Shown: piece after piece, positions 1 to 59,272 of the stretch | How the letters are laid out: each line of letters begins with the position of its first letter | Numbering within the stretch: the first letter of the stretch is position 1 | From: Orobanche coerulescens | Lineage: Eukaryota > Streptophyta > Magnoliopsida > Lamiales > Orobanchaceae | Assembly: GCA_033398695.1 (NCBI GenBank) | Contig: CM065802.1 | Coordinates: 166,713,965-166,777,964, forward strand | DNA length: 64,000 bases | Direction of reading: 5' to 3' | The notes under the pieces: model-generated | The model's database searches: none | What the model saw: the letters and a program-made list of their open reading frames with translations, nothing else | Told to the model about the DNA's origin: nothing | Made by a program: the position numbers and the translations under genes

Positions 1-2025
1 GAACAACAAACCTCAAGAGTTGAAATTACACAATCATGAATTAGCGAAGTTATGAAATATTCTTAATTATGAATTACGGCGAAGAGGAGCATCATAGTAC
101 GCCCGTAATGTCTGTGCAAGTGTACAAGACGAATGACCGGACACACCCGTCCTTGTACCTAATTAGTCTCACGGAGGTAAGCGTTACCGTGTGCACGGTC
201 CGATGTATCGGTGAACCCGATACATGACCATCGTGTGCCCGACTAAAAATTCCACCTGACCACACCCGGCCACGCAATATGAACCGGAAGGTCACATGAG
301 CGAGAATGACCATGATGAATATCAATGAATAATAATTAGACAAGGCCAAGATGACTCACCGATATGAAAGTAATAGTGATGTGATTGATAACTTGATGAA
401 ATGATTTGGAACCTTCGTTCCTCGTGAATGAAATGATTATTCGACAATTACAAGTCTCAAAATGATTATTATTATGATGAATGAATTATGATTATGAGCC
501 ATCAACAACAAAAGGAATTGGTATCCTTTTAACCGAGTAAGATTTAACTTACACAATACCGATGAAGAATGTCCGTCCACGAACAACGTCCTAACCAAGA
601 TACCGATCGCTCGAACAACCTTGAATAACAATAATTACCAACAATCGTTCAATACACGTATCAAACAACAAAACACGACTAACCCAAGGGTGAAACAACG
701 ATAAACAAACTCATAGGCATTCCAACGAATACATAACCGACCGCACAACCGGAAATATCGATCCGAATATGTCGAAACCCACACCAAAATGAGTATTTCG
801 AACTAACAAAACACTTCAATGATATCAATAATCCATTAGGAATCCATAATTCATGATTATAACGACATCAATCGGAAAATCCCCAATTAACGAAGTCAAC
901 CCCAAGGGTTCTTGAAAACAATTCGAAAATAACCATTAAATCCGGAGGAATATATTTATCAGTAGATAATCCATAACTTAACATATCCCAATGATAATCC
1001 AAGCTTACGAAGAAATCGGAAGGAAAACCCAAAAATCCGAAATTCTAGATCCAAGAGATTAATACCTTTGATTCGATGTGATGAAGATGATGAAATGATG
1101 ATCAATCCGAAAGATGAGCTTGAAGATGATGATTGATGATTACACCTCGAAGAACCCTCTCCGAAACGCTCGAAATCGCCCAAAAATACCGAAGGAGTGA
1201 AATGAGATGAGCAAATGAAGAAGTCTGACTAACTGTCGATTTATACTCGATCCGAGGTTAGCGTGCGCTAGCCCTTGTGCATAGCGTGCGCTAACGAGTA
1301 ATTTGGGTAGTCCAGTACCCACTGTCCGAACACGGTAGCGCGCGCTACGTACCTCTTTGTAGCGTGCGCTACGGCCATACTACTAGCGTGCGCTACGGCC
1401 ATACTACTAGCGTGCGCTAATATCCATTGTTAGCGTGCGCTAGCGAAATATTTGGCCTTGATCGGAGTCGAGAAAACCATCGCCTCGATCTAACCTCGAT
1501 AGCGTGCGCTACAACCATTATTTAGCGCGCTAATATATCGGTTGCGTCGCTAACAACAATGCATAGCGTGCGCTATGAATAAACCGGTGAAGTCCGGTAG
1601 CCCTTTGGACTCAACACGATCCGCCCAGCGCGCTACTCCACACATATAGCGTGCGCTACTCGACCGTTAGCGCGCGCTACTTACCACTCGTGGCGTGCGC
1701 TACAATTATTCTCACTGCAGTCCGGTACCTTACGGACGCGGCCCGAGTAACCTTAGCGTGCGCTAAAGGCTGGCGGTAGCGTGCGCTACTCCTCAAGCAC
1801 GACTTGCAACGAAAATGACAATGATGATAAACACGCACGAAACTCCAATCAGATTAATGATGAATGACGATCGATACTCGATACAATTACTCGAATGATG
1901 AATACCATGATCGAATCGAGTGACAAATGATCAATAATGAATGAAATTCGAGTATCAATTCTTGAATGATAAATCTTGAATGATAATTCTTGAGTGATAA
2001 TTCTTGAATTACAATGGGTATTACA
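1..2025 (-). repeat. 3' LTR of chromovirus copy A (partial)
   Basis: This stretch aligns along its length with 7,549-9,612. The inner end reads GGGTATTACA, the complement of the TGTAATACCC that opens the LTR in element orientation. Compared with the 5' LTR it has one extra palindrome unit near 1,384 and lacks two units near 1,790. Many CAG/CTG positions are altered, for example near 1,721-1,740 against 9,253-9,274. Confidence 0.93.
1259..1788 (-). repeat. Phased 12-bp palindrome array in U3 of the 3' LTR
   Basis: Copies of TAGCGTGCGCTA and variants start at 1,259, 1,282, 1,336, 1,360, 1,384, 1,408, 1,431 and onward. Spacing within groups is 22-24 bp. The array begins 12 bp from the TATA-like TTTATAC (GTATAAA on the element strand) at 1,240-1,246. 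It is the counterpart of 8,800-9,369 in the other LTR. Confidence 0.9.
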
Positions 2026-3599: not shown

Positions 3600-5476
3600 C
3601 GTCGGCGACAACGTTCGCCTTGCCGGTGGTAGAGGATCTCGATATCATAATCTTTGATTAATTCCAACCACCGTCTCTCGCGCATATTTAACTCATACGA
3701 GTAAATATATACTTTAAGCTCTTATGATCGGTGAATATCGCGGTGACGCCATAAAGGTAATGACGCCAAATCTTCAAAGCGAACACCACGGTGCTAGCTC
3801 CAGTCGTGGGTCGGATAATTAACCTCGTAAGGCCTCAATTGCCGTGAAGCATAGGCGATAACTTTCTCGTTACGCATGAGCACACATCCGAGACCTGTCC
3901 GACGCATCACTATAGACCACAAATCCTTAGTCCCTGCGGCAAGGAAAGTACAGTCTTGACATTAACCGACTCTTGAGTTCCTCAAAACTCCGTTGACACG
4001 CGTCGGACCACGTGTATTTCTTATCCTTCCGCAAAGGTTCGTTAAGGGTTGAGCGATTCTAGAAAATCCCTCTACAAATCGCCGATAATAACCCGCTAAT
4101 CCGAGAAACTTGGATTTCCTTAACGTTCTTCGGAGGTAGCCAATCTCGAATAGCCTCCGTCTTCGAGGATCGACACGAACTCCGTCGATGAAATTACATG
4201 TCAGAAAAGTCACTTGGACATCCAGAACTCACATTTAGAAAACTTCCCATAAAGTTGTTCTCGTCTCAACACGTCGAGCACTCGATGAAGGTGAGACTCG
4301 TGTTCCTCAGTCACGAGAATAAATCAAAATGTCATCGATGAAGACAACAAAAACCGATCCAAAAAGTCGATGAAAACCCGATTCATTAACTCCATGAATA
4401 CGCAGTGCATTAGTCAATCCGAGCGGCATAACCACAAACTCATAATGACCATAGCGTGTTGAAGCGGCTCCTCGCGATGTCAGACTCTCGGATCCGCATC
4501 GATGATATCCGGACCTTAAGTCGATCTTGGAAAATCGAAGCTCCTGCAGTTGATCTAATAGATCATCAATACGGGGTAAGGGATACTTATTCTTGATTGT
4601 CACCCTGTTCAACTCCCGATAATCAATACATAAGCGAAATGAACCATCCTTCTTCTTGACAAACAATACTGGTGCTCCCCACGGGGACGCACTCGGTCGG
4701 ATCTAACCTTTCTTGAACAACTCCTCAAGTTGGTTCTTTAACTCCTGCATTTTGGTCGGGGCCATCCGGTACGGAGCCTTCGATATCGGGGACGTACCAG
4801 GCTCCAACTCAATCGTGAATTCCACATCCCTCTGTGGAGGCAAACCAGGTAACTCGTCTGGAAAAACATCGGCATATTCCCTCACCACCGGAATATCCGT
4901 TAACATTACTGATGACTTCTCGGTTTTGGCCATATAGCACCAATAACCGACACATCCCTGATTGAGTAACCTTACTGCTTTCATTGAATTAATGACCTTA
5001 CGAGCAGTAGGATTACCTCCCTGAAACACACATTCAACTCCATCGTCTGAAATGATAGTGACCATACGCTTACGGACATTAATGATGGCATCATGACGAT
5101 CCATCCAATCAATACCCAAGATGACGTCGTCCCTCGGCAAATCTACCACGATTAGGTCCACTGGCCATACACGACCATGAAACTGAATCGGACAATTCTG
5201 AATCTCACGATTACCGATAATTCGTCTACCATCAGGTAGTCCAATGACATAAGGCTCACAACTAGTAGCACTACCCAGACGTAGTCTACTCAAACATGAC
5301 TCGGAAATGAATGAATGCGATGCACCAGTATCGAAAAGAGTACACACAGGTTGAGATAGAATATCGAGTGTACCCGAGATCATTCGGGCCTCTGGATCAT
5401 CGGTCTTCTTCATCTCATAAATCCGGGGCTTGCTAGTCCCGACACCGGATGCTCCGTCTGTGGCTAAAAGCTCCAC
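3600..5476 (-). pseudogene. Gypsy protease, reverse transcriptase and RNase H
   Basis: A 257-residue open segment (5,476-4,703) carries the aspartic protease site FDTGASHSF near residue 50 and runs into the start of reverse transcriptase. A second segment (4,666-4,307) holds RT motifs: [20 protein letters not shown], then [11 protein letters not shown], then [10 protein letters not shown] with the catalytic FIDD. RNase H follows to about 3,600 in broken frames. RT copies the RNA genome and RNase H degrades the template. The protease part is well preserved and retains CTG/CAG triplets, whereas flanking parts have lost many, so preservation is patchy. Frameshifts near 4,680 and 4,480 separate the segments. 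Confidence 0.9.
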
Positions 5477-5576
5477 CTTTAGTCGCTCCGTCGTTTTAAG
5501 CAGCCGATTGAAGTGACCTGATTACGAGCGGTGTTGCTTAGGTGCACGAGATGACGTCCGAGTAGGTTTGGAGTCC

Positions 5577-7158: not shown

Positions 7159-8782
7159 ACTCTGTAACACCCCAAACTAGGCGGATATTACGGATCTGTG
7201 GACCCCATTGGGACCCACCGAGCGAATGAAAATGAATGAATTACAGGTAAATGTAGTACCGAACCACATTACAACATCAATTACTCCGATGAGGAGTTTT
7301 ATACAACACACCGAGGATAAAATAGAATACATGTGTATTTTATGTGACGATAAAATACACAACATGAATGAAATGAGCATTCAAACGGAATGTCTGCATT
7401 GGAATAAATAAAAGAAACACAAATGATGAATAAATGGTGAGCAATGGGGCCCCTACTAGTATCACTGGGACTCGTCGCCATCAACATGCTCTTCCGTGCC
7501 TTTGCCTTGCCGTGACACGAAAACAAAATCCCCAAGCGGGTCGATTCTGAACAACAAACCTCAAGAGTTGAAATTACACAATCATGAATTAGCGAAGTTA
7601 TGAAATATTCTTAATTATGAATTACGTGAAGAGGAGCATCATAGTACGCCCGTAATGTCTGTGCAAGTGTACAAGACGAATGACCGGACACACCCGTCCT
7701 TGTACCTAATTAGTCTCACGGAGGTAAGTGTTACCGTGTGCGGTCAGATGTATCGGTGAACCCAATACATGACCATCGTGTGCCCGACTAAAAATTCCAC
7801 ACGCCACACCCGCCACGCAATATGAACCGGAAGGTCACATGAACGAGAATGACCATGATGAATATCAATGAATAATAATTAGACAAGGCCAAGATGACTC
7901 ACCGATATGAAAGTAATAGTGATGTGATTGATAACTTGATGAAATGATTTGGAACCGTCGTTCCTCGTGAATGAAATGATTATTCGACAATTACAAGTCT
8001 CAAAATGATTATTATTATGATGAATGAATTATGATTATGAGCAATCAACAACAAAAGGAATTGGTATCCTTTTAGCAGAGTAAGATTTAACTTACACAAT
8101 ACCGATGAAGAATGTCCGTCCACGAACAACGTCTAACCAAGATACCGATCGCTCGAACAACCTTGAATAACAATAATTACCAACAATCGTTCAATACACG
8201 TATCAAACAACAAAACACGACTAACCCAAGGGTGAAACAACGATAAACAAACTCATAGGCATTCCAACGAATACATAACCGACCGCACAACTTCGGAAAT
8301 ATCGATCCGAATATGTCAAAACCCACACCAAAAGGAGTATTTCGAACTAACAAAACACTTCAATGATATCAATAATCCATTAGGAATCCATAATTCATGA
8401 TTATAACGACATCAATCGGAAAATCCCCAATTAACCGAAGTCAACCCCCAGGGTTCTTGAAAACAATTCGAAAATAACCATTAAATCCGGAATATATTTA
8501 TCCAAGTAGATAATCCATAACTTAACATATCCCAATGATAATCCAAGCTTACGAAGAAATCGGAAGGAAAACCAAAAATCCGAAATTCTAGATCCAAGAG
8601 ATTAATACCTTTGATTCGATGTGATGAAGATGATGAAATGATGATCAATCCGAAAGATGAGCTTGAAGATGATGATTGATGATTACACCTCGAAGAACCC
8701 TCTCCGAAACGCTCGAAATCGCCCAAAAATACCGAAGGAGTGAAATGAGATGAGCAAATGAAGAAGTCTGACTAATCGTCGA

Positions 8783-8789
8783 TTTATAC
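8783..8789 (-). promoter_or_regulatory. Probable TATA box of the copy A LTR
   Basis: GTATAAA lies on the minus strand, 10 bp from the first palindrome unit. The same element at a similar distance is found in the other chromovirus LTRs of the window (13,341-13,349; 62,653-62,662; 48,648-48,655), which supports a core promoter. Confidence 0.7.
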
Positions 8790-8799
8790 TCGTCCGGGT

Positions 8800-9369
8800 T
8801 AGCGTGCGCTAGCCCTTGTGCATAGCGTGCGCTAACGAGTAATTTGGGTAGTCCAGTACCCACTGTCCGAACACGGTAGCGCGCGCTACGTACCTCTTTG
8901 TAGCGTGCGCTACGGCCATACTACTAGCGTGCGCTAATATCCATTGTTAGCGTGCGCTAGCGAAATATTTGACGCCCAGTACTGGAGTCCAGAAAACCAT
9001 CTGCCCTCTGATCTAACCTCGATAGCGTGCGCTACAACCATTATTTAGCACGCGCTAATATATCGGTTGCGTACGCTAACAACAATGCATAGCGTGCGCT
9101 ATGAATAAACCCGGTGAAGTCCAGTAGCCACTGGACTCAACCTGATCCGCCCCTAGCGTGCGCTACTCCACACATATAGCGTGCGCTACTACGACCCGTT
9201 AGCGCGCGCTACTTACCACTCGTAGCGTGCGCTACAATTATTCTCACCTGCAGTCCAGTACCTTCTGGACTGCAGCCAAGGTAGCCTTAGCGTGCGCTAA
9301 AGCTGAGCGGTAGCGTGCGCTACCTATACCCAATTAGCGTACGCTAAAAGGAGTATGTAGCGTGCACTA
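8800..9369 (-). repeat. Phased palindrome array, type TAGCGTGCGCTA (reference copy)
   Basis: Eighteen 12-bp units start at 8800, 8823 | 8877, 8901, 8925, 8948 | 9023, 9046, 9067, 9090 | 9154, 9177, 9200, 9223 | 9288, 9311, 9335, 9358. Spacing inside groups is 21-24 bp, mostly exactly 23. The gaps between groups carry a second inverted repeat such as GTCCAGT-AGCC-ACTGGAC (near 9,119) and CTGCAGTCCAG-TACCTT-CTGGACTGCAG (near 9,247-9,274). Units are imperfect palindromes with arms TAGCG/CGCTA; some (TAGCGCGCGCTA) are perfect. The asymmetric TG centre nearly always reads TG on the plus strand. The array lies in U3 directly upstream of the TATA box. Its function is unknown. Confidence 0.95.
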
Positions 9370-9612
9370 CTCCTCAAGCACAGCTTGCAACGAAAATGAC
9401 AATGATGATAAACACGGCACGAAACTCCAATCAGATTAATGATGAATGACGATCGATACTCGATACAATTACTCTGAATGATGAATACCATGACTGAATC
9501 TGAGTGACAAATGATCAATAATGAATGAAATTACTGAGTATCAATTACTGAATGATAAATACTGAATGATAATTACTGAGTGATAATTACTGAATTACAA
9601 CTGGGTATTACA

Positions 9613-10984: not shown

Positions 10985-12632
10985 AATGCTGTACAGATGC
11001 ATGTTTTCCAAGCATCTTCTAACACTTCCATCATCTCAATGATAAACTCATCTCGATATTAAGTATTTCAGAACATATTCGATTCCAACTTTAATCTTCT
11101 AAACACGAATCAACAAGATTCCTTCTTGTTCATATTTGGTAAATTCATAGAACAATTTACCGGTTATTATCATGAATAATCATATTCCAAAGTCATCCGT
11201 AACCTTTCAAATTTTCAGTTCTTATTCATAACAATCATGACATATATAATTCAATAGTTCTTCAAGAACACGAATTACCCGAATTCACGTTCATGATCCA
11301 TAAAATGACATAATTCGATGTGTTCTAACATCTAAAAATCCATATTCATCATGTTCTTCGACATACAATTCATATAACTTCAAGAATCACAATAGCACCA
11401 CCATAATCGTTACCATACGAAGTAACCAACGACAAAACATCATAAAATCCGAATTGAAGAAGGGAATTACATCAACATATCTCTTTAATTCCATCCAAAA
11501 CCATACAAAACATATCAATACTCACATATTGATAACAACACTAACTTAGTTCGGTAATCCAACTCGTTATCATGCTCATCAACTCGAATATATGGTAATC
11601 ATCAACTCAAGAACATCAATAATCAATCCAAACGAAATCTAAAAGTGAAGAACTATTACCTTGTATAGATGAACCATGAAGGAGAACAATCAACTTCATT
11701 CCAAGGATCATCCATAATTTCAAGAACAAGACTTTAATCCATGTTTCTCAGCTTAATCTTTGTTAAAGATCATCATCTCTCAGTGTTTGGGACCTCAAAC
11801 TTCTCTCTAAAAACTCTCTCTCTCGGTTGCAAGGAAGGAATAGACGAAATGAAGGATAATGCCCAACTACACATATATATACTGTATATTATTAACGTGC
11901 GCTAACATCTCATGTTTAGCGTGCGCAACAGCCTTAACGTGCGCTAACTGACTTTGTTAGCGTGCGCTATCGCAGTCCAGAGGCTACTGTCTAGCTTCGT
12001 ACATGTGCTTACGTACGTAATGCCCATCCATTAGCGTACGTAACTTACATTGTCTAGCGTACGCAAGTCCTTACATTTGGCGTGCGCTAATACCAGTTGA
12101 CTTGCTACAGTCTACACCTACCACGAAGATGCTCGTGACCCACATGCCGAAAGCAACCAATAACGCCAAGATTCCCTGTTGACCGATCTGATTAGCGTGC
12201 GCTATAAATATACATTAGCGTGTGCTAATAGCTCACAACAAACATCCGTTGACCTTGTCGGTATATGCGCCGAAAGTGACCGGGTCCACACATAGATTCC
12301 TTCTGATCTGGTCTGTACTAGCGTGTGCTACACTCTGCCTCTAGCGTGTGCTAACCATGAACGATAACGTGCGCTATACCTGAACATTAGCGCGCGCTAG
12401 TCAGGCTATACTTAGCCATTTCCAACTCTTCTCGTCCGTCTCGACATACTGGATACGTATACATGACGCACTATATCCTCTAATACAATTGTCGACCAAG
12501 TACGACAATTATACCGATACTGACATCTCAATACTTTATTTATTTTATCTATACTGTACAGATTCCACGCTCTACAATATAACTCGGATAAAATAATATT
12601 AAACAACGGTAGTAGGAATTCCGGATATTACA
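10985..12632 (-). repeat. Chromovirus LTR fragment, minus orientation
   Basis: The right end, CCGGATATTACA at 12,632, is the start of an LTR in minus orientation. The interior has palindrome units, then a run of TATATATA near 11,871-11,880, as in the other LTRs. The left end abuts the plus-strand LTR at 10,984 and is probably continued beyond the window. It appears inserted in the 3' LTR of the second chromovirus, whose sequence resumes at 12,633 (AATACCGGTGATG, homologous to about position 550). Confidence 0.7.
11893..12399 (-). repeat. Phased palindrome array, mixed TAGCGTGCGCTA / TTACGTACGTAA cores
   Basis: Units start at 11893, 11917, 11935, 11958 | 12009, 12032, 12055, 12078 | 12193, 12216 | 12319, 12342, 12365, 12388, again mostly 23 bp apart in groups of four. 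The second group uses the perfect palindrome TTACGTACGTAA and hybrids such as TAGCGTACGTAA, which shows the core changing while phase is kept. One spacing (11917 to 11935) is short by 5 bp. Confidence 0.9.
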
Positions 12633-13362: not shown

Positions 13363-13922
13363 TAGCGTGCGCTATCTCCTGCGATTAGCGTGCGCTAGCG
13401 GGTTTACCAGGTAGTCCAGTGAACTTTGCCTGCCGCGTTAGCGTGCGCTATGTACTTGGTAGCGTGCGCTAACGCCTTCCTCTAGCATGTGTTAACCGGA
13501 TGTTAGCGTGCGCTACCTGATAGTTGGTGCTAGTAACTGGAGTCCAGGACCTACTATCCTCTGCCCTGCTCGCCTTAGCATGCGTTACACCGGTAACTTA
13601 GCATGCACTACTAAAACAGTTAGCGTGCGCTACCCTCACACATAGCGTGCGCTACGAATTTCCAATTCAGTTCAGTGCCTACTGGACTGCCTGCCACAAT
13701 TACACGAGTTGTGTGCGCTAATGAAGGCCAATAGCGTGCGCTGCTGATATAACTAGTGTGCGCTATTCTCCACTCATATCGTGCGCTACGAATTCTCTAA
13801 TTCAGTCCAGTACCTTCTGGACTGTCTGCCTCACTTGCACTAGCGTACGCTAATACTGAGCGATAGCGTGCGCTACCAGTACTCAATTAGCGTGCGCTAA
13901 AAAGAGTATGTAGCGTGCGCTA
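13363..13922 (-). repeat. Phased palindrome array, 2-4-4-4-4 architecture
   Basis: Units start at 13363, 13386 | 13439, 13460, 13483, 13504 | 13576, 13599, 13621, 13643 | 13709, 13732, 13754, 13777 | 13841, 13864, 13888, 13911. Grouping (2-4-4-4-4) and phase are the same as in 8,800-9,369, although single units have diverged (for example TAGCATGTGTTA at 13,483). Gaps again carry CAGTCCAG...CTGGACTG (near 13,804-13,825). Confidence 0.95.
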
Positions 13923-14177: not shown

Positions 14178-15566
14178 CTAAGGGTCGAACAATTTGGGAT
14201 AACTCTCCTGCATACTATCCTTGGTTTTCCAAGTAGTCTCTTCGACTTCCTGTCTAGACCACTGAATTTTCACCAAAGGAATCGCCTTGTTCCTCAATTG
14301 TTTGATTCGTCGCTCTAAGACTCGTACAGGACGCTCCTCATACGTATGATCATCCGCGATCTCGATTTTATCAAACTGAAGTATGTGACTCAGGTCGGCA
14401 ACATACTTCCGCAGCTGAGAGACATGAAACACGTTATGAATTCGGCTCAAAGCCGGAGGTAAAGCCAATCGATAAGCCAGACTGCCTACTCGATCCAAAA
14501 TTTCAAATGGTCCAATGAATATCGGACTCAACTTTCCTCTCTTCCCGAAACGGAAAATACCTCGGCTCGGGGACACCTTGACCAAAATGTGGTCACCTGT
14601 ATCAAACTCTAATGGCCGATGACGATTATCTGCCTATGATTTTTGTCGACTCTGAGCGGTCAACAAACGACTCCTGATCAAAGCTACCTTTTCGCGGGCG
14701 GCTATAAGCATATCGGGCTCAGTGCCGATTGATTATGACAAATCATCCCAACACAAGGGAGATCGACAACGACAACCGTATAAGGCCTCGTAAGGTGCCA
14801 TCTTAATCGAAGCATGCCAACTGTTATTATACGTTAACTTGATCAACGGCAGTTGGGATTCCCAATCATCTTTCCAATCGAGAACACATGCCCTCAACAT
14901 GTCCTCTAACGTCTGAATAGTTCGCTATGATTGTCCATCGGACTGAGGATGAAAAGATGTGCTGAAATCTAGCTGAGTTCACATGGCACGATGAACGGAT
15001 TTCCAAAAATGCGACACTAATCGCCCGTCACGATCCGAAATGATACTCTTAGGGGTACCGTGCAATATCACGATCTCTTTAATGAATAATTGGGCAAGTC
15101 TCTCAGGACCCCATGTATCCTTAATCTCAAGGAAATGAGCTGATTTAGTTAAACGGTCCACAATTACCCAAATTGTGTTCATGCCACGACGACTCATTGG
15201 CAAACTCGTGATGAAGTCCATTGAAATATCCTCTCACTTCCATTCTGGGATAGGAAGTGGTTTTAGCATACCCGCCGGTCGCTGATGTTCTATCTTGGCT
15301 TGCTGACAGGTCAGACATCTCGAAACAAATTCTGCGACTTCTCGCTTCATATTACTCCACCAGTAATCTTGTTTCAAGTCTTTGTACATCTTTCTGGACC
15401 CCGGATGGATAGAATAAGGGGTAGCATGGGCCTCTCTCAAAATCGAGTTTTTAAACTCGTCATCCGCCGGAACACATAACCGGTTCTTAAATCGCAAAAA
15501 TCCATCCTCGTGGACCACAATTCCAGGGTCTTTCCCCTGAGCCACATCATCTCGTATACGCAACAA
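14178..15566 (-). pseudogene. Gypsy integrase and C-terminal chromodomain
   Basis: Segments in element order: 15,566-15,234 with the zinc-binding (HHCC) region, including LREAHATPYSIHPGSRKMYK and CLTCQQAKIEHQRP; 15,221-14,979 with the catalytic core start ([20 protein letters not shown]); and 14,585-14,178 with the integrase C-terminus (RFGKRGKLSPIFIGPFEILD) followed by a chromodomain-like end (RPVRVLERRIKQLRNKAIPL ... WKTKDSM). The chromodomain after integrase is diagnostic of chromoviruses and is proposed to target heterochromatin. The segment ends at a stop just before the polypurine tract. The catalytic part is split by frame changes near 14,600-14,980. Confidence 0.9.
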
Positions 15567-15599
15567 AAATGGATATGAACCCTAACTCGTTTTGATCGC

Positions 15600-17640
15600 C
15601 TCCTCAAGTGGCGATGAAATATCTAGCATACAAAGTTGCCCTTGCACTCGCTATAACCAGACCTCGATCTCAGGCCTTAGGAATTCCTGCTGAAGTTCCT
15701 TCTGAGCAGTCAAACGAGCAAGCATTTGCTCCTGAATGGACTTACGGCTCAAGGTGTCTGCGACGACATTCGCCTGACCCGGATGGTATTGAATCTCAAT
15801 ATCATAATCTTAATCAGTTCCAACCGCCGTCTCTGTCACATGTTTAAATCCTTCTGAGTAAATATATACTTTAAACTCTTATGATCAGTGAAAATCTGAC
15901 AAGTGACGCTATAAAGATAAAGTCGCCAAATCTTCAATGCGAAAACCACGGCCGCTAGCTCCATGTCGTGGGTCAGACAATTGACCTCATAAGGCCTCAG
16001 TTGCCGTGAAGCATAGGCAATCACTTTCCTGTTCTGTATTAATACACATCCGAGACCATGTCCGGGCGCGTCACTATAAACCACGAATCCTTCCATCCCT
16101 TGTGGTAAAGATAGGATAGGCGCTGAAATTAAACGGCTCTTAAGTTCCTCAAAACTCTGCTGACACGCGTCAATCCACGTGTATTTCTTATCCTTCCACA
16201 AAAGGTTCGTCATAGGTTGAGCGATCTTAGAAAATCCTTCCACAAATCGCTGGTAATAGCCTGCTAATCCGAGAAAGCTTCGGATTTCCTACATTCTACA
16301 GAGGTTGCCAATCTCGGATAGCCTTCATCTTCTGAGGGTCGACATGAACTCCGTCTGATGAAATCACGTGTCCGATAAATGTCACCTCGGACATCCAGAA
16401 CTCGCATTTGGAAAATTTTCCATAGAGTTGCTCCCGTCTCAACACATCGAGGACCTGATGAAGGTGAACTTCCTGCTACTCTCGGTTACGGGAATAAATC
16501 AAAATGTCATCTGTGAAAACAACCACGAACTGATCCAAATAGTAATGAAAACTCGGTTCATTAACTACATGAATACTGCATGTGCATTAGTTAACCCAAA
16601 CGGCATCACTACAAACTCGTACTGCCCATAGTGTTTTTGGAACGCCGTCCTTACGATATCCGACTCTCGAATTCGAAACTGATGATACCCAGGTCTTAAA
16701 TCGATCTTGGAAAATACTGAAGCTCCCTCAATTTGATCTAAGAGATCATCAATGTGGGGTAGGGGATATTTATTCTTGATCGTCACCCTGTTCAACTCTC
16801 GATAATCAATGCACAAGCGAAAAGAACCATCCTTCTTCATGACAAATAACACTGGTGCTCCCCACGGGGACACACTCGGTTGGATATAACCTTTGTCGAT
16901 CAATTTCTCCAGTTGATTCTTCAGTTCCTGCATTTCGGTCGGGGCCATACGATACGGTGCCTTCGATATAGGGGACGTACTAGGCTCCAACTCTATCGTG
17001 AATTCAACATCTCTCTGTAGAGGCAAACCAGGTAACTCATCTGGGAATACATCGGCGTATTCTCTCATTACCGGGATATCCTCCAACATCACTGATGGTT
17101 TCTCGGTCTTGGTCATATAGCACCAATAACCAACACACCCCTGATTGAGTAATTTCACTACTTTCATCATATTAATGACTCTTCCGGAACGGCTGGGGTT
17201 ACCCCCCTGAAATACACACTCGACTCCATTGTCTGAAATGATAGTGACCATACGCTTATGGACACTAAGTATGGCATCATGACGATCCATCCAATCAATA
17301 CCCAAAATTACATCGTCTTTAGGTAAGTTCACCACGATTAGGTCTGCCAGCCATTCATGGCCATTAAGCTGAATCGGACAATTCTTAACTTCACGATCTC
17401 CGATAATTATTCTACCATATGGTAGCCCAATTATATAAGGTTCAGAACTAGTAGCACTATCCAGGTGAAGTCTACTCAAACATGACTCAGAAATGAATGA
17501 ATGAGATGCGCCAATATCAAAAAGGGTACACACAGGTTGATATAAAATTTCGAGTGTACCTGGATCATTTGGGCCTCCGGATCGTCGCTCTTCTTCATCT
17601 CGTAAATTTGGGGCTTGCCCGCCCCAGAACCGGATGCTCC
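15600..17640 (-). pseudogene. Gypsy protease, reverse transcriptase, RNase H
   Basis: The long open segment 17,533-16,565 (322 residues) starts inside the protease and covers much of RT, including [20 protein letters not shown] and the [12 protein letters not shown] motif. The protease site reads [10 protein letters not shown], with isoleucine replacing the catalytic-motif threonine of D-T/S-G, so protease activity is doubtful. RNase H is at 16,243-15,836 ([15 protein letters not shown] and [16 protein letters not shown]). The RT end carrying the YIDD-type motif lies near 16,490-16,560 in another frame. These are enzymes of reverse transcription inside virus-like particles. Confidence 0.9.
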
Positions 17641-18475
17641 TGTCTGATAACTATGGGCTCCGCCTTTAGTTGCTCCCGTTGTCTTAAACGACTCGGACTG
17701 AGTGGCGTGATTCTGAACAGCCGACTGCTTCAGGGTAAGAGATGCCGTCGAAGTAGGTTTGGAGTCTCTTTGGCAGAAATGGGCCTTATGCCCGGCAATC
17801 CCACAGTTATTACACGTGATAGTCTGCCTCGGACACTTAGTGCTGAAATGACCCAGCTCTCCACAATTGAAATAGGTGATGGCCGAATTGGCCACTAGGG
17901 ACTGAGATTACGCAGGTTTAGGCACCATAGGAGGTCGCTCAGAAAAAGTAGGGCCCGCACGGGGCTTCTTGAAGGTTGCCTGATTGCTTTCGGACTGATT
18001 AGGATTCTTCGATTTCTTGCCAGAAGATGAGGGTTGTTGCTTAGCAATTTCCTTCGCAGTAAGCTCATAGGTAAGATCTTTCTTGATGAATTCGGCCAGG
18101 GTGGTGCAATGATGATTAAGCAACTGCATCCGCATACGAGGTTTCAACCTCTTACTGAAATACTTGATCTTATCCGCCTCGAAGTGGATAATGGATGAGG
18201 CGAATGGAAATAGATCCTGAAACTTCTCGGCAATGGCGAGAACATCATCTTCCGCTAAGGGGTCGGGACTGAGTAACTCCGATAACTTGGCCTCCCTGAG
18301 TGGGGACGGATAATACCTTTCCATCATTATGGTCTTGAACTGGTCCCAAGTGCAATATCCGTCAGTGGGCTTCAAAGATAACCACCAAGAGTAAGCGCTC
18401 TTACCCAGATAGTAAGCCGCAACTGAAACTTTGTGTCCCTCAGGACACTCCAACATAGCAAATAACTTCTCTAGC
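17476..18475 (-). pseudogene. Gypsy gag, N-terminus lost at a chimeric junction
   Basis: From 18,456 the capsid domain reads ECPEGHKVSVAAYYLGKSAY then WWLSLKPTDGYCTWDQF, typical of the plant retrotransposon gag domain. After a Ser/Lys/Pro-rich linker come two zinc knuckles near 17,820-17,890: the first (YFNCGELGHFSTKC) has Tyr where the first Cys is expected; the second (CNNCGIAGHKAHFC) is a complete CX2CX4HX4C. The start codon and first part are missing because homology ends at about 18,475. A small frame gap separates capsid from nucleocapsid near 17,900. Confidence 0.88.
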
Positions 18476-30652: not shown

Positions 30653-32605
30653 TGTTAGGAGTATGCCCTCGAATGCCATTCAGAGGTTGTTGAGTGAGGG
30701 CATTGTACTTGAAATTATGTAAACCATTTATATAAGGCAAATGAATGTTTCTTTATTTTACTGGTAGTTACTGGCATTCCTAACTCATAAATAAATATAT
30801 AGAAACTAGTCCATGTATTTGAGAGCAAAACGTTCCACTCCTTATTGGATAAGGGGGTCGGCACTGGAAAGGTTATAGCTCAAATACTTAATCGTTCGCA
30901 AGTCGATGAAACTTGACTGGGCGTTAAGTTTATGTGAAGACTTGTATAACGTGTTCTTTGACATGGAGAGTGCCTGTCGAACACTAATGGTTAGTGGGAG
31001 CACACGTTATAGGTATGCTAATTGGATTAGTATACTCGAACCGACTCACCCTCGATTCGTCACGGATTTCACTCGGGACGATCAATGACGGAATCGAAAG
31101 GTTGTGATAGGTATTCGTGAACCTTCGACTTGAGGATTTAGTAGGGATGTGCTTGTGACATCAAGATTTTCATTAGAGTAGTTCGACCGTAAACCTAAGG
31201 CGGGGTCAACCTCGACTGCATCTTGACGGCAAGTAGCAGTCTCGAATACCAAGATAGAATTCTTTCTCCTGTTAGTGAGCGGGTTATATGTCCTATGCGG
31301 TTATTGGAAGATGAGATCATAAGTCTTTGGCCAAAGCATTGGAGCTAGCTGTATTAGATACACGAGAGCTCGATGATCTCGGTTTGCATTAACGCATGCA
31401 TAGCGTCAAGTACAGATGGGGTTTGACTGACCGTGACCCCATAACTTGATCGGGACATTTGAAAGAAGGGTTTATATGTTTACTGGTATTCACGACAGAA
31501 TGGTTCTTGAATGATCCCATCATTCGTTCTCGATTCAAGTGCAGTGTAGGCCGCCAGTTGGCTAGGTGGTGCTACTACTCTTTGGTTCCTCCCATTGCTG
31601 ACTGAGACGAACCTACCGAGTCGCGCAATAGGATTGACGACGGAATGAATCAAGCTTATTCTCTCTTTATAAATATTGGATATTGGATATCTAATTTATT
31701 GGGACATTGGATGTCTAAATTGATTTATTGGATAAATTAATTTACGGCCTAATGAATTAAATAAATTACTGGGTGATTAATTTAATTCATGAATATAATT
31801 ATTTCTTGGAGAAATTAATTATGTTATTATGTATTTGATATGATTAATTAATTGGATTAATTGATATAAATACATCGGAACGGAATCGGAGTTTATCTGT
31901 TTGGACTCACGGGAGTCCGAAACGGACCGAATTTTTCCTACCCTTCTAGATGGCCGCCCCCTCTTTGTCTTCCACCTAATGTGGTGGAAGACTTCATGAT
32001 TTTATATCATGAAATGTTTATCAATAGGGGACATGGAATCTCTTTTATTATAAAAGTGATTTGATGAGTTGTTGAATGAAGAATAAAAGGAGTAGACTAA
32101 CTCTTCCTCCTTCATTATTAGCTTCCTACGTGAGTTGTAAGCCTTTCAAGAGAGAGAATTGTTTTCTCATATAGTCTTCCTTTTTCTTCTTCATCTTCAT
32201 CACAAGTTCTTGGTTTTTTCTTGGAGAAAACATCAAGACATAAAAGAGAGATTGTGAGTTATACACTTGGAGTGTTATAATTTCATATTGGAAGCTTCAT
32301 CACCTAGCTCTAGCCGTATCCTCGGAGGATAGCAAGGTGTTGTCATTCCGTTCGTTTTTCCGGCGCGTGGCAAGTAGAGACGCGGTGCTTTCGGCGTTGG
32401 ATCGTTCAAGAGCTTGGGGAATAGCTCAAGAGAAAGTTATCCATCTAATCAACGGACTACAAGGGTGAGTTTCTATATCTCTTGTTAATTCGTTTTTGAT
32501 ATTCGTATATACGTAGCTCGATCGATCCTCGTAGGGATTCGGATCGAATTAATTTTCGTTTTACCGCTTCTGCTGGGCCTTCGTTTTAGGCACCGAATCC
32601 TAACA
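30653..32605 (+). repeat. 5' LTR of Copia element 1 (1,953 bp)
   Basis: It runs from TGTTAGGAGTATGCCC to the terminal complement TCCTAACA at 32,605. It is related to the LTRs of element 2 (37,998-39,983 and 45,595-47,580) in inverted orientation. Confidence 0.95.
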
Positions 32606-32606
32606 G

Positions 32607-32619
32607 TGGTATCGGAGCG
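32607..32619 (+). other. Primer binding site of Copia element 1
   Basis: TGGTATCGGAGCG lies one base after the 5' LTR and matches the initiator-Met tRNA primer site. Confidence 0.92.
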
Positions 32620-32887
32620 TAGGTCTTGCGATCGTATATACGATATTGGCATTTGGAATGCTCGATTAGATGGTGAATGATTTGGAATCATTTTAGTCAT
32701 AATCGTGGTACATGTTTTACGTTCGTTGTAGTTATATTTTTCGTAAGTTTATGTCTAAATATAAATCTTAAATTTCTGGGAAATATGATTTATATTGAAG
32801 ATATGAATGTTAAAAAATATTGATATTGGATATCCGGTCGAAAATCGAGCTCCGAATCGTCGTCGGACGATTTTTCGGACAAAGGCG

Positions 32888-33070
32888 AGATTCTTTGCCC
32901 GGTGGTGACTCGGCCGTGTCAGTGACACGGGCCGTGTCCGGCGATCCCGAAGCCACGCCAGCACTCCGACCGTGTCGGGGACACGGGCCGTGCTGCGGCC
33001 GGTATCGGCGTGACTCGGCCATGCAGTGTCTGTCACGGAAAAGTGCCGATGGTGACTCGGCCAGTGACCC
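32888..33070 (+). repeat. GC-rich palindrome cluster in the Copia 1 leader
   Basis: Repeated GACACGGGCCGTGTC (perfect odd palindrome near 32,925), GACACGGGCCGTG near 32,975 and three copies of GTGACTCGGCC (near 32,905, 33,009, 33,051). The cluster lies in transcribed leader RNA between the primer site and gag and is also present in element 2 (45,130-45,310), so it is a family trait. Confidence 0.75.
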
Positions 33071-34246
33071 ATTTCGCCCGGCTCGATTTTTCTCGTATTC
33101 TTAAAAATTAATATCCCGCATATTAAATTGGATTTAATATGATTAAAATGATTTATGGTATTTCATTTTATAAGGGAATTTTGATTAATTGGAATATTTA
33201 TGGTCGACCGAATTATTTTGAACGTTATCATATTACCGATTATGTGAATCGATTTGATTGGTTCGTATTGTTGATTGGATCAATGTATCTCTACGTTTTC
33301 CATTTATTTAGTATTTATTGGATGAATGCTTTTGAATGGGGATGTGGTTCGTGGACTTAGTTTTTGAATCGTTCGTTTTATTCGATTGGGTTGTAAAGGC
33401 CGTTTTGAGCCTATTTATTTTACTAGAAATATTTGTATCTAGGATGCAATTTTCAATATAAAATTTATATGTAATGACGAAGACCGGAGGAGATCCATTT
33501 CGAGAAGACGAAGATTCAAGACGAAGACTTGTAATTAGATTACGGAGTTTTTTGTTTTCTAGGAACGGTCCATGAACCACATGTTGGTAGCAACTAGGTT
33601 GTGAATGGTTGTTTCATATTGTATGAATGCCACAAACGCGCTTAAACGATTAATGTGCAAAGTGCAATGTAAATCGCGAAAATTCTCCCACGATAAATTA
33701 TTAAGTTTATAAGGTTTCAAAGTTTTTCCTTCCCTCCATCGAGTTTTCGAGAAATTGAAATCCAAACCGGATGTGCTATGCTTCCGAGTTATCGGGGTAG
33801 TCGTTCGGGGATGACGGATAAATTACCGGGAGCGCATTGGATGCATTCGGTTGGAGCAAATTTTATCCCTAGAAACACGATAGGTTCTTAGGATAAGATT
33901 CAATTGTGAGCGATTGCGTCGATGGTATAAACTTAACTTGTTCACGAACCATAGAAACCGTATAGGTTGAGGGGAGTGAACAAGGGGAAAAAGAAGATCG
34001 AATCATCCATTAGATGGGTTGGTGTTGGACACCACTTTATGAAAATTAATAGACTAGAAACCTGTTCGGTTGCCTTCTATTAAGATTTATAAAGAACTCG
34101 ATCACCACAATGAAGTAGAGCGACGATACTTCCGGATTTCACATGGGAGTGTGTTATTCCGATAAAATAGTGGGAGCTGAGTAACAAGAATAGAAAAGAC
34201 CTTAATTCTATACTCAAAACATAATTGAATGAGTCACTAATACTTA

Positions 34247-35130
34247 ATGCAGACAAATCTCAATATGACAATGAATCCACTCACAATTCTACTCGAAAAG
34301 AACACCTTAATGGGACCTAACTTTGTGGATTGGCTCCGCAATCTGATGATTGTCCTCAGTATAGAGGCACTGGGATACGTCTTGGAGACGGACATTGGCG
34401 CCTCTGTGCGGACCGAGCCAATCGGAAGAGATTGAAAACCACGAAAAGTGGGTTAAGGATGACGTGAAAGTCCGTGCTTATATGATGGCTTCCATGTCTA
34501 ATGAGCTTCAGAGAGCTCATGAGAAAATGACTTCGCTGGCGATTTTATCTCACTTAACCGAGCTTTATGGTGAGCATAGCGTAAGCGCTAGATATGAGAT
34601 ATCCAAGCAATCGTTCGGTGGAAGGATGAAGGAAGGTGAGAAGGTTGGGGAACACGTCCTCAAAATGATATCCATGATCGAGAGATTGGAGGCTCTTGAT
34701 TTTAAAATGGATACTTCTCTCCAAACCGACCTTATCCTACAGTCTCTCCCGATTCCTTCTCACGGTTTGTTATGAACTTCAACCGCAATGAGATTGCATG
34801 TAATTTAGCCGGGCTAATGAACAAACTTGTGACCGCTCGGTCTCGGATGAAGACTCGCGGATGAAGGAGTCCGCTCTTGTGATTTCTTACGGACTTCTAA
34901 GTCTAAGAATAAGAAGAAAAAGACCAAGAAGCGGACTGCAAGCTAAGGACCTTAAGGGTAAGGGCAAGGCCCCGATGGTTCCGAAGAACAAGAAGAAGAA
35001 GGATGCTTGTCTCAAGTGTGGTGAGCTGGGCCACTGGGCTAGAGACTGTCCGATTATTCATGGCACTTCAGGTACAGAACTTTTAGTTTTGGAAACAAAT
35101 TGTTCTGCTACTGTATTTTCTACTTCCTGA
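34247..35130 (+). pseudogene. Copia 1 gag, frame-broken
   Basis: It starts MQTNLNMTMNPLTILLEKNT and carries a UBN2-type gag domain (EKWVKDDVKVRAYMMASMSN, MISMIERLEALDFKMD) and, near 35,005-35,050, a complete zinc knuckle CLKCGELGHWARDC. Gag forms the particle and binds element RNA. Compared with the 316-residue gag of element 2 it has frame breaks near 34,405, 34,755 and 34,880, nearly all at places where the other copy has CAG or CTG and this one has CGG or CG. The damage may therefore be sequencing error and not mutation. Confidence 0.9.
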
Positions 35131-37997
35131 ATACTTGATTCTTGTGCTAGTTCTCATATTTGTACCGTGAATCAGGATATGGAACAAAGTAGGAAGCTTG
35201 GAGCTGGAGAAGTTATGATCACAGTCGGAAGCGGGCATAGTGTCGAGGCGACCGACATAGGATCACTTCTTTTGGGTTTAGAATCCGGCTTTGTTTTGAC
35301 TTTAGAAGATGTACTTGTTTTGCCCAAGGGGCACAAAAACATTGTATCCATTCCGGTCATGGACCGAAAGGGCTTTTCATTTTTCATTGGTGATGGTTCC
35401 TCCAAAATTTATTTTAGAAATAAACTAGTGGGTACTGCTACATTGTTGAATGGATTGTATCATCTAAATCTCAGCAACAAAGTAGTTGTGAATACTATGA
35501 CTAGAAAACGTGGTAGGGATGAAACCAATCAAGTTTTGAAATGGCATCTTAGACTTGGTCATGTTGGTCAGACCAAGGTTTACAAGATGGAAAAAGATGG
35601 ACTTATGGGTCCATTGGGATCAGATCCCTTTCCTACTTGTGAATCTTGCCTTAAAGGCAAAATGACTAAGTCCCCCTTCACAGGGACTTTTGAAAGAGCC
35701 GCTGATAAACTGGGATTAATCCATACTGACGTTTGTGGTGCTTTGGAAGCAGCACGTGACGGATATCAATATTTCATTACGTTTACAGATGATCATTCTA
35801 GGTATGGTTATGTATACCTAATGAAACATAAATCCGAGGCTTTTGAGATATTCCAGGAATTCAAGGCCCTAGTCGAGAAACAAACTGGTAATCATATCAA
35901 AGAACTTTGGTCGGACCGAGGTGGCGAGTATATGAGTACGGAGTTTGACGAGTTCCTTAAGGAACATGGAATAGTTTCACAACTAACACCTTCAGTACCT
36001 CGGTTAAATGGTGTGTCAGAAAGAAGGAACCGGACCCTGTTGAACATGGTCCGTTCCATGCTGGGCTATACTGACTTGCCGATTTACCTGTGGGGGTATG
36101 CACTCCTGACTGCCGCGTATATCTTGAACAGATGTCCTTCCAAATCCGTTCCTAAAACTTCACATGAGATGTGGGAGGGAAGGAAACCAAGTCTTAATCA
36201 TATTAGGATTTGGGGATGTCCCGCTTATGTCAAGAAGACTAAGGTGGAAAAGTTGGAAGCTAGGTCTGCGAAGGGACGTTTCATTAGATTCCCGTCTGGG
36301 ACGATGGGATATCTATTCTACATGCCCGAAGATCGAAGGATCATTGTTTCTTTACAAGCACACTTCTTGGAAGATGAGTTCATTCAGGAAGGCGGAGCAG
36401 GTAGAAGTATTTCTTTAGAAGAATACAATGAAACTCCTCGGGAGACATCTGTGCAAGAAACTGGAACTGAACCTTCTGAAACACAAGTACAACCACCTCG
36501 TAGGTCTAGTAGGGTGTCTCATTTACCTGAGAGGTATGGGCTTGTGCACTTGGAGGAGCTGGGTCTCCATGAGGTTCCAAGTGATAGCCAAGAGACCGAC
36601 CCGACGACCTATGACCAAGCGATGGTGGATGTAGACTCCGCGAAATGGCGTGAAGCTATGGAAGCTGAGATAGACTCGATGCATGTCAATCAGGTCTGGA
36701 CTCTAGTAGACCGCCCCAAGGGCATAGTTCCTATTGGGAACAAGTGGATCTACAAGAGAAAGACTGATGGTGATGGCAAGGTTGACGCCTATAAGGCCAG
36801 GCTTGTGGCAAAGGGTTATACCCAGAAGGAAGGGATCGATTACCATGATACCTTCTCGCCCGTAGCCATGATCAAGTGTATTCGCATGATGCTTGCTATA
36901 GATGCCTACCACGATTATGAGATATGGCAAATGGACGTAAAGACGGCTTTCCTTAATGGATTCCTCGAGGAGGAAATCTATATGGAGCAGCCTAAAGGTT
37001 TTGTGTCCGAAGTCGATATTCAGAAAGTGTGCAAGCTTCAGTGTTCCATTTATGGACTGAAGCAAGCGTCGCGTAGTTGGAACTTTCGTTTTGACGAGGC
37101 AATCAAAGAGTTTGATTTCGTGCAAAATGAAGAGGAACATTGTGTATACAAGAGGGTTAGTGGGAGCAAGATCACATTCTTAGTACTATATGTAGATGAC
37201 ATTCTACTAATAGGAAATGATGTGGGAATACTCAGTTCTGTGAAAGCTTGGCTTTCGAGTAATTTCTCCATGAAAGACTTGGGAGAAGATACCTATATTC
37301 TTGGTATTCGACTCTACCGGGATAGAGCGAAGAGAACAATAGGTCTTTCCCAAGCCCTCTATATAGATAAAATCTTAAATCGATTTAAGATGGATGATTC
37401 TAAAAGAGGGTTCCTACTGATGCGACATGGAATAAAACTCACCTTGAAGATGTGTCCTCAAAGTGAGGAACAACGAAAGGAAATGAGTAATATACCACAT
37501 GCTTCGGCCGTGGGTAGCCTTATGTATGCTATGTTGTGTACAAGACCTGACATCGCGCATGCTGTAAGCGTAGTGAGTAGGTTTCAGGCAAACCCAGGTA
37601 GGGAACATTGGACTGCCGTAAAGAACGTTCTCAAGTACTTAAGAAGGACTAGAGATATGGTTCTGATGTATGGCGGTGGAGAATTGGATGTGGTGGGATT
37701 CACTGATTTGGACTTCCAATGACTGAAGGACGACTCGATGTCTACTTCTGGCTACCTATTTAATCTTAATGGAGGAGCAGTATCTTGGCGTAGCGCCAAG
37801 CAAAGTGCGACTGCTGATTCCACCTGTCAGGCTGAGTATCAAGCAGCCTCGGAGGCTTCCAAGGAAGGGTTCTGGATTAAGAAGTTTCTGGGAGAACTTC
37901 AAGTGATACCATGTCTTGAAATTTGCTGTTACCATCTTTGCGACAACGACGGAGTCAGCGCGAGGCCAGGCGAGGTTTCACAACAGCACCAAACATA
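35131..37997 (+). pseudogene. Copia 1 pol: protease, integrase, RT, start of RNase H
   Basis: An 851-codon open frame runs 35,167-37,722. Upstream of it the protease site reads ILDSCASSHIC, with Cys where Gly of D-S/T-G is expected. Then come the GAG-pre-integrase region (KWHLRLGHVGQ, CESCLKGKM, residues about 120-175), the integrase core with acidic residues in HTDVCG (about 186), SDRGGEY (about 250) and SERRNR (about 285), and RT with YVDDILLIGND at about 674. A TGA at 37,720-37,722 replaces a GGA of the sister copy and ends the frame; RNase H (QSATADSTCQAEYQA) follows to 37,997, where element 2 is inserted. Confidence 0.93.
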
Positions 37998-47842: not shown

Positions 47843-48470
47843 TGTAATACCCGTAATTTCGATTTCTGGTAATTTTCTTTTTCGGCGTATGTCCGTTTTG
47901 ACGACTCTCTCATGACCATTTCGTCATTTCGAGAATGATTAATTCTGCACTTTTTGTCATCCGAGTTCGTTTCGGTATCGTTTTGCTGAGTTCCGAGCTT
48001 TTTAGACGCTTTTCCGCACTTGAGTTCGATTCTTGCGAATCTCGTCCGAAACTGTTGTTTCGAGTTTCTCGTAAGTTCATTTAATGTTATTATTCTTGTT
48101 GCAAGATTTGGTTTGGTGTTTCGATCGCGTATCGTGATTTTCGGACGTTTTGGGCCATTTTCGTAATTTCCTAAAGTTTTGGGTAATTACTTCCGTTGTC
48201 GGATTCCGAGCCTTCGGGTGGTCGGAATTGTGTGTTCTCTTAGCTCTTAGATTCGTCTTTGCGAGTACGTCGTAACCGTATCATCGATTCGTATTCAGGT
48301 TCGGGTTTCGGGGTCGTTCGGGCCGTCGGAGTTGGCCCCGGCCGACATGGCCGGGCAATCTGGGCCCAGGCCGGTACTGGCCGAGTCACGGCCGGTAGTG
48401 ATCGGCAGCTTCTGGCCGAGTCACGGCCGGTAGTGCTCGCGGCTCCGGCCGGCGAGCCGTCTGCCGTAGG

Positions 48471-48636
48471 GCCGCGGCACATGCCGGCAGGGCCGCGCCA
48501 CACTCTGTGGCATTTTTCGGCCAAACCGACTGTACCGGGTGCCGCGGCACACGCTGGCCGGGCCGCGGCACACTGCCGACCACTGTGAGCCATTTTTGGG
48601 CCTGTGCCGCGGCACACTCCCGCTGGGCCGCGGCAC
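48471..48636 (+). repeat. Phased palindrome array, GCCGCGGCAC core
   Basis: GCCGCGGCAC units (longest form TGTGCCGCGGCACA, a perfect 14-bp palindrome) start at 48471, 48492 | 48541, 48562 | 48606, 48627, pairs exactly 21 bp apart. The last unit ends 11 bp before the TATA box, the same geometry as in the TAGCG-type LTRs. Further upstream, GAGTCACGGCCGGTAGTG is duplicated (48,380-48,440). Confidence 0.88.
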
Positions 48637-59258: not shown

Positions 59259-59272
59259 ATCTCCCCCTTTTT
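59259..59272 (-). other. Polypurine tract of the gag-only element
   Basis: The minus strand reads AAAAAGGGGGAGAT next to the 3' LTR. Confidence 0.88.

Follow-up and report, generated by a model that had tools for sequence, protein, structure and literature searches.

Arrays of short palindromes near a promoter have been described in plant retrotransposons. In Sireviruses, many copies of CpG-rich palindromes, the RM boxes, lie in the upper half of the long terminal repeat (LTR), shortly upstream of a conserved TATA box, and a regulatory role was suggested for them (PMC2829016). A CGG-CCG core is found in 12 of the 13 tabulated RM boxes, which were called Sirevirus-specific (PMC2829016). In Arabidopsis, VANC proteins bind dense arrays of one-way motifs in VANDAL transposons (PMC5735166, PMC10398659). 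EBNA1 and LANA, whose sites lie in gammaherpesvirus genomes, bind semi-palindromic sites as dimers (PMC2921154, PMC3798644). The dyad-symmetry sites of EBNA1 have a centre-to-centre distance of 21 bp, and LANA shows cooperative binding to two sites in precise phase (PMC3798644). We analysed a stretch of 64,000 nucleotides (the window) from the genome assembly of Orobanche coerulescens (3,646,015,169 bases, 3.65 Gb; a single genome), in which an original prediction had pointed out phased groups of a 12-bp palindrome at positions 8800-9369. This palindrome (M1, consensus TAGCGYRCGCTA) was found in LTRs of both Ty3/gypsy and Ty1/copia elements, next to a TATA box and together with a second palindrome (M2, AGTCCAGTAGCYACTGGACT). 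The kind of array is already known from the Sirevirus palindromic boxes and the VANC arrays. What is new is the shared, TATA-registered grammar of two palindromes.

Like the RM boxes, M1 is a palindromic motif that recurs in the upper LTR ahead of the TATA box, so the claim that no described plant LTR element has such a grammar was too strong (PMC2829016). The copia element of the window is itself of Sirevirus type, with multiple AGGGGGAG tracts near its 3' LTR, as described for that group, in which the last tract stands 10 bp from the LTR (PMC2829016). However, TAGCGYRCGCTA has no CGG-CCG core, and M1 also occurs in gypsy elements with RVP_2, RVT_1 and SH3_Tf2-1 domains, so that it is not confined to Sireviruses. 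Phased spacing, even grouping and a second palindrome were not reported for RM boxes in the available text of PMC2829016. The VANC arrays are similar in that short motifs stand densely and in the same orientation in non-coding parts of mobile elements, and in that target sequences differ between related systems (PMC5735166). In contrast to M1, the VANC21 motif YAGTATTAY has nine bases and is not a 12-bp palindrome, the VANDAL arrays are tandem repeats visible in dot plots with a motif that is rare in other elements, and VANDALs are DNA transposons that encode the reader (PMC5735166). The M1 12-mer was identical to a stretch inside the EBNA1 binding-site region of the Epstein-Barr virus Q promoter as printed (PMC2921154), and it was also present once in a mutated Hes5 promoter construct (PMC5825848). 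EBNA1 and LANA sites belong to episome origins, whereas M1 lies in retrotransposon promoters. The identity with the EBNA1 site most likely reflects coincidence or convergence on a type of site, and not descent. The literal M1 and M2 strings gave no match in plant-repeat literature within the published texts searched, and a palindrome grammar common to gypsy and copia LTRs was not found in the literature searched, which was mostly without subscription papers. The M1 pair pattern gave no match in viral contigs, where the 23-bp spacing was used, or in a collection of genome contigs.

At 8800-9369, 18 M1 units with at most two mismatches to TAGCG-NN-CGCTA were arranged as 2-4-4-4-4 from the promoter side. 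The units start at 8800 and 8823; at 8877, 8901, 8925 and 8948; at 9023, 9046, 9067 and 9090; at 9154, 9177, 9200 and 9223; and at 9288, 9311, 9335 and 9358. This agreed base by base with the original prediction, including the exact 23-bp steps of the group that starts at 9154. The spacing within groups was 23 or 24 bp, and in some cases 19-22 bp, instead of 23 bp throughout. The TATA box adjoins the array as predicted, at a measured gap of 11 bp instead of 10, and the array lies upstream of it when the element is read on the minus strand. The host element was assigned to the Ty3/gypsy superfamily, and to that level, by its LTR pair, its gypsy protease and reverse transcriptase and its polypurine tract. 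Its features were as follows.

7163-9612, minus strand: 5' LTR of the Ty3/gypsy element, holding the 18-unit array; 2450 bp, 92.4% match to the other LTR, ends on the plus strand TGTAACACC...ATTACA.
8800-9369, minus strand: M1 array of 18 units, 2-4-4-4-4, in the U3 of the gypsy 5' LTR.
8782-8788, minus strand: TATAAAT promoter box, 11 bp from the first M1 unit.
1-2025, minus strand: 3' LTR of the same element, extending 389 bases past the left end of the window (-389 to 2025).
1259-1788, minus strand: M1 array of the 3' LTR, 14 units with at most two mismatches, with one group of five where the 5' LTR has four.
4310-5521, minus strand: remnants of gypsy protease (RVP_2) and reverse transcriptase (RVT_1), by Pfam.

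M1 arrays of the same type were present at seven places in the window, beyond the single one first noticed. The string AGCGNNCGCT occurred 71 times in the window, compared with 0.24 expected from shuffles. Genome-wide, AGCGTGCGCTA was found 523,687 + 527,323 = 1,051,010 times, and the reversed control 76 + 60 = 136 times. A chance origin was ruled out by these two comparisons. Exact direct M1 pairs with a gap of 0-30 bp numbered 242,417 genome-wide, and in 208,018 of them (85.8%) the gap was 11 or 12 bp, which places the units 23 or 24 bp apart. Two of 31 gaps would give 6.5%, and the backward pair controls gave 0. The sharp genome-wide peak that had been predicted was thus found, at 23/24 bp, and random spacing, which would have spoken against the prediction, was not.

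Further results were obtained from 40 loci in addition to the window. These were 20 stretches (18 motif places on one contig, C1, and two beside the window) and 20 further places on C1, taken from pattern lists because they looked diverse. The sample is non-random, since it was picked at motif places in the first 33 Mb of one contig and in the window. It contained 57 arrays with at least four units, many of them related copies. Exact M1 12-mers numbered 386 inside arrays; the only three elsewhere were each within 14 bp of the end of a locus. With M1 masked, single linkage gave nine groups, and hand sorting gave ten families (F1-F6 and F8-F11), from which the second arrays of F5 LTRs were kept apart as F7.

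The M1 unit reads TAGCG-YR-CGCTA. Among 381 units with at most one mismatch, pooled from the window and loci L009-L028 (one unit counted twice, because L028 overlaps the window), the centres were TG in 212, CA in 90, CG in 41, TA in 37 and AT in one. A pyrimidine-purine (YR) centre was therefore present in 380 of 381, which would fit a half-site on either side of a flexible step. Outside the centre, palindrome positions carried 1.4-2.0 bit, and the YR centre carried about 1.0-1.2 bit; selection at one mismatch or fewer inflates these values and does not inflate those of the spacers. The 95 distinct 11-bp spacers carried at most 0.26 bit per column, and the 48 distinct 12-bp spacers at most 0.42 bit. 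Within families, palindrome sites (palindrome in at least one of two aligned copies) were more often identical than other sites in all eight families tested. The identities at palindrome and other sites were 0.941/0.676 in F4 (which includes the two LTRs of one insertion), 0.922/0.733 in F1, 0.895/0.599 in F3, 0.951/0.787 in F6, 0.820/0.562 in F5, 0.807/0.685 in F8, 0.675/0.590 in F9 and 0.863/0.684 in F10; F2 and F11 were left out. These results were consistent with the prediction that the palindrome and its phase are kept and the spacers are not. CpG decay was dropped as an argument for selection, because the CpG observed/expected ratio was 0.94 in spacers and 1.13 in flanks. The array flanks of the sampled loci thus showed no CpG depletion, in contrast to many methylated plant elements.

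The spacers also bear on an ordinary tandem repeat, in which the units would be recent in-phase duplications and the spacing would record only that. One LTR of the host element carries an additional unit of 24 bp whose spacer is an exact copy (1360-1419, 2.5 copies, 100% match). In-phase duplication therefore does add units, and it is a likely way for units to arise. However, spacers within an array were barely more alike than shuffled ones (0.290 and 0.256), and only 3 of 477 pairs agreed at 8 or more of 11 positions. The palindromes were conserved far beyond the spacers, and the even groups and TATA register described below would be left unexplained. A plain satellite was rejected as a full account by spacer information, conservation and spacer similarity, as the original prediction had held, and recent duplication as the whole explanation is highly improbable.

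Groups were defined as units joined at 18-29 bp, and counts at two and at one mismatches or fewer were used. Counts at three or fewer were set aside because of spurious matches inside spacers. At two mismatches or fewer, the 246 groups comprised 31 single units, 111 pairs, 17 threes, 84 fours and three fives. There were 195 even groups and 20 odd groups of three or more, compared with permuted-spacing means of 93.8 and 62.6, and none of 1000 permutations was as extreme. When one array per family was taken, 22 groups had two units, 18 had four, two had three and three had one. Groups of four, which had been predicted, were common, but pairs and fours describe the grouping better. Since the groups were mostly even, the working unit looks like a pair.

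A TATAWAD box within 120 bp was found on the transcript-downstream side in 46 of the 57 arrays and on the other side in one. The side of an array was set by its TG/CA centres, which agreed with the coding strand in 23 of 28 arrays; this count takes all window arrays as minus, two of them without coding evidence of their own. Outside F1 and F2, the first TATA box stood at 10-13 bp in 31 arrays among 48. Eight copia arrays, treated below, had a longer distance, and the other seven distances were 21, 21, 22, 32, 37, 56 and 56 bp. Genome-wide, M1 followed by TATAAAT at 10-13 bp was found 46,353 times, and the wrong-way ATTTATA at any gap of 0-30 bp 6,028 times, the gap ranges being different. Many of the 100 wrong-way matches listed read TATTTATA.

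The second palindrome, M2, lies between M1 groups, about 16 bp from the neighbouring groups. Twenty copies with at most one mismatch were found in the sample, with gaps to the flanking M1 units of 16 bp (22 times), 17 (8), 15 (6), 20 (3) and 14 (1). At four mismatches or fewer, 50 copies were in arrays and 12 outside, and all of the latter had four mismatches. The genome contained 31,553 stranded matches, in which a perfect palindrome counts twice, and the control gave 0. M1 halves stood at 14-18 bp on both sides in 17,093 of the 31,553 (54%). With a 16-bp gap, the distance between M1 and M2 centres is 32 bp, about three turns. M2 was present in gypsy family F4, and perfect copies were present in F2 (L032, L036). 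The F1 copia arrays had M2 copies only with three or four mismatches. A piece of 21-25 bp common to F6, F8 and F9 (L046, L043, L034) kept one M2 arm (CTGGACT), with the other arm changed. The M2 copies of the window, given without strand, were as follows.

9118-9137: M2 palindrome, 16 bp to the M1 unit on each side.
9252-9271: M2 palindrome, 17 and 16 bp to the flanking M1 units.
8850-8869: M2-like variant with three mismatches; it separates the pair nearest the promoter from the first group of four (15 and 7 bp).
62800-62819: M2 palindrome in the F3 LTR, 15 and 17 bp.
62932-62951: M2 palindrome in the F3 LTR, 16 and 17 bp.

M1 arrays are common to Ty3/gypsy and Ty1/copia LTRs. F1 was identified as copia by its gag (L023, L024 and the window), and F2 by a polypurine tract and LTR junction of Sirevirus type, together with 62 bp that matched no family but F1 (L032, L036). 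F4, F5, F6 and F11 were gypsy, with coding sequence tied to the array-bearing LTRs; the frames at L015 and L012 contain stops. F3, F8, F9 and F10 had no coding match tied to their arrays. Gypsy coding sequence was found near an F3 array at L009, but on the wrong strand for that array. With M1 masked, representatives of the ten families shared only short matches of 11-35 bp at a lenient threshold, and the strongest matches between families were at M2 or M2-like stretches. An apparent link between the F1 copia and F3 arrays was an artefact of 200-bp flanks that overlap in the window. Unrelated families thus carry the same phased palindrome, as though all of them used one putative DNA-binding protein. 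The remaining M1 arrays and their elements in the window were as follows.

58050-59258, minus strand: 3' LTR of the Sirevirus-type copia element, TGTTGG...CCAACA, target site duplication CTAAT.
61298-62510, minus strand: 5' LTR of the same element, pairing with 58050-59258.
60639-61307, minus strand: copia-type gag, Retrotran_gag_2 (PF14223), E 5.9e-27.
59261-59668, minus strand: four AGGGGGAG polypurine tracts, with plus-strand starts at 59261, 59544, 59642 and 59661.
58610-59124, minus strand: M1 array of the copia 3' LTR, 12 units, TATAAAT at 43 bp.
61858-62376, minus strand: M1 array of the copia 5' LTR, 12 units, TATAAAT at 43 bp.
11893-12399, minus strand: M1 array of LTR family F10, 13 units, TATATAT at 11 bp; no coding sequence ties it to a superfamily.
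62674-63049, minus strand: M1 array of LTR family F3, 12 units, 2-2-4-4, TATA at 12 bp, superfamily not tied by coding sequence.
13363-13922, minus strand: M1 array in an F4 gypsy LTR that has diverged (about 69% identical to 8092-9558), TATA at 13 bp.
14181-18474, minus strand: coding remnants of a second gypsy element, with a weak gag match, a zinc knuckle, RVP_2, RVT_1 and SH3_Tf2-1.

The four polypurine tracts lie within about 410 bp, and the last reads AGGGGGAG-AT-TGTTGG. Pol was not found in the short copia copy at 58050-62510, and its copia-type assignment is by gag only. The two copia LTRs are 97% identical and differ in a local block (58680-58710 and 61920-61965), which holds an M2 half in one and unrelated bases in the other. 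In the second gypsy copy, no chromodomain was found in 14181-14633, the sole C-terminal stretch scanned. Where an LTR pair was visible, the arrays were inside the LTRs. The predicted restriction to U3 was mostly true in the sample; the exception is a gypsy group with another array beyond its TATA box, on the downstream side. Such second M1 arrays stood beside or in F5 gypsy LTRs, at L018 1885-2073 and 9088-9279, L015 7055-7223, L017 2280-2495 and L025 5250-5438. The second array of L018 is about 670 bp downstream of the TATA box, presumably in the transcribed part.

We consider it probable that the array is a promoter-proximal regulatory platform in the LTR U3 for a putative dimeric factor that works as pairs of dimers, with a partner at M2. 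The even groups, the 23-24-bp phase, the YR centre, the conserved half-sites and the TATA register are most simply explained by a dimeric protein acting in pairs with a palindrome-binding partner. Each TAGCGYRCGCTA palindrome would accommodate a single homodimer of a protein that binds DNA sequence-specifically. Two M1 sites 23-24 bp apart would form the working unit, and such pairs would join cooperatively into fours. M2, which keeps a distance of about 16 bp to the closest M1 on either side, may be the site of another dimeric factor or of another surface of the same complex. After the last M1, the TATA box stands at the point where a further spacer would end, and the complex probably contacts the basal transcription machinery and would activate transcription. 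Units would arise at least partly by in-phase duplication, after which spacers would drift and palindromes be kept. The platform of the original prediction, for a putative dimeric factor, is the best-supported reading, but its placing on one DNA face was not supported. With 10.5 bp to a turn, a step of 23-24 bp makes 2.2-2.3 turns, and neighbouring M1 units are therefore rotated by about 70-100 degrees.

About 150,000 LTRs carry one phased address, a rough figure from 1,051,010 exact 11-mers and about 6.8 exact units per sampled array. An address common to superfamilies with otherwise unlike arrays would make a single trans-acting factor testable. The arrays would be a natural record of promoter assembly, with two palindromes, a spacing rule and a TATA box in tens of thousands of copies. 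This would bear on how the promoters of retrotransposons stay active and on why certain lineages come to dominate the genome of a plant.

The sharing between superfamilies could also suggest an anti-silencing address. An element-encoded VANC-like protein would read the arrays and strip methylation, and unrelated elements would be free riders. This would agree with the mostly one-way M1 pairs: exact inverted pairs with a gap of 0-30 bp were found at 4,825 places genome-wide, which gives a direct to inverted ratio of about 50:1. It would also agree with the near absence of exact 12-mers outside arrays in this motif-picked sample, with arrays common to gypsy and copia, and with the use of other palindromes at like spacing in other LTRs. 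However, the TATA register and the even grouping are signs of a promoter function as such. Pfam on ten window stretches gave seven gag-pol matches and three without a match, and no genome search for a VANC or extra gene was made. We regard such an address as unlikely.

The units also showed a polarity. In 44 arrays with the sense strand set by the TATA box (the two of L021 included), the centres of 543 units on that strand were CA in 408, CG in 56, TA in 38, TG in 36 and others in five. The mean predicted RNA fold was -173.5 kcal/mol for the sense strand, -196.6 with every unit flipped and -182.7 for the antisense strand. In all 44 arrays, flipping was predicted to stabilize the sense RNA, and the sense RNA as it stands was predicted to be less stable than the antisense in 31 of 44. 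The sense RNA is less stable with CA because CA keeps C-A mismatches where TG would allow G-U pairs. The polarity may have been selected to limit transcript RNA structure while the DNA site stays symmetric. Alternatively, it could come from a factor that reads the centre asymmetrically.

These folds are the opposite of what selection for hairpins would give, and they weaken an explanation by RNA, in which the palindromes would form working hairpins within the U3 portion of the transcript, or would be retained as a source of small RNAs. The arrays were predicted to fold stably (in L013, 563 nt at -243 kcal/mol, a value without a shuffled control), which would favour it, and LTR palindromes of maize Sireviruses are reported to be small-RNA hotspots (PMC5311732). 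Neither the TATA register nor the fixed spacing would be needed, and a palindrome of 12 nt with two bases at its centre makes a poor hairpin. Taken with the folds, an RNA function appears quite improbable.

Several results weigh against the promoter-proximal platform. Asymmetric use of the unit (CA centre in 408 of 543, direct pairs far above inverted ones) is unneeded for a purely symmetric site. The TATA box was at 38-43 bp and not at about 12 bp in eight copia arrays, all of F1 or F2, and in 11 of the 57 arrays the 120 bp on the expected side contained no TATA match. Orientation by the centre contradicted the coding strand in five of 28 arrays, and two of these five (L021, TATA at 56 bp) were counted among the 46 arrays with a box. 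F9 showed little excess conservation at its palindromes. The figures for even groups and TATA were obtained with related copies, from loci that had been selected where the motif occurs.

Other palindromes were found at like spacing. M3 (GTGCCGCGGCAC) forms pairs with a step of 21 bp in LTRs, or stretches resembling them, other than those of M1; mostly 44-52 bp separate one pair from the next. M4 (TTACGGCCGTAA) was found in a group of four. In the window these were as follows.

48469-48636, plus strand: M3 array, three pairs of GTGCCGCGGCAC-type palindromes (six in all) with a step of 21 bp in each pair; TATTTAA follows after 11 bp.
51391-51470, plus strand: M4 array, four TTACGGCCGTAA-type palindromes, 23, 22 and 23 bp apart.

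Further M3 places were L009 5115-5313, L016 2555-2707 and 5267-5437, L025 8624-8721 and L027 8343-8529. The distance between pairs was once 24 bp in L009, and L027 was less regular, with steps of 63, 21, 24, 20 and 47 bp. In L009 and L016, the nearest T/A-rich box was further off than the 11 bp of the window. Genome-wide, exact GCCGCGGCAC pairs numbered 88,800 at 21 bp (control 0) and 129,714 at gaps of 0-30 bp (control 1); 68.5% of the pairs thus fell in one of 31 gaps, with some places counted on both strands. Looser M4-like units (TTACGGCCGTAA or TTACGYRCGTAA) were present at L009 1918-2061 with steps of 23, 49, 37 and 23 bp. Among repeated non-M1 palindromic 12-mers at most 60 bp apart in the sample, the commonest distance was 21 bp (10 of 36 pairs, all M3).

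These palindromes suggest, tentatively, a spacing code. Palindromes of 12 bp in pairs or fours at 21-24 bp by the LTR promoter would be interchangeable (M1, M3 and M4) and read by diversified dimeric proteins, host or element-encoded, and gypsy and copia elements would have converged on the address or swapped it. We hold this possible, though doubtful. If it were true, one factor could switch on or shield unrelated element families together. Candidate palindromes termed M5 (L026 8127-8291) were dropped for irregular spacing and AT-rich surroundings. Free of M1 arrays, a 7.5-kb inverted repeat also lies in the window, with 91% identity between 30653-37998 and 47580-40172.
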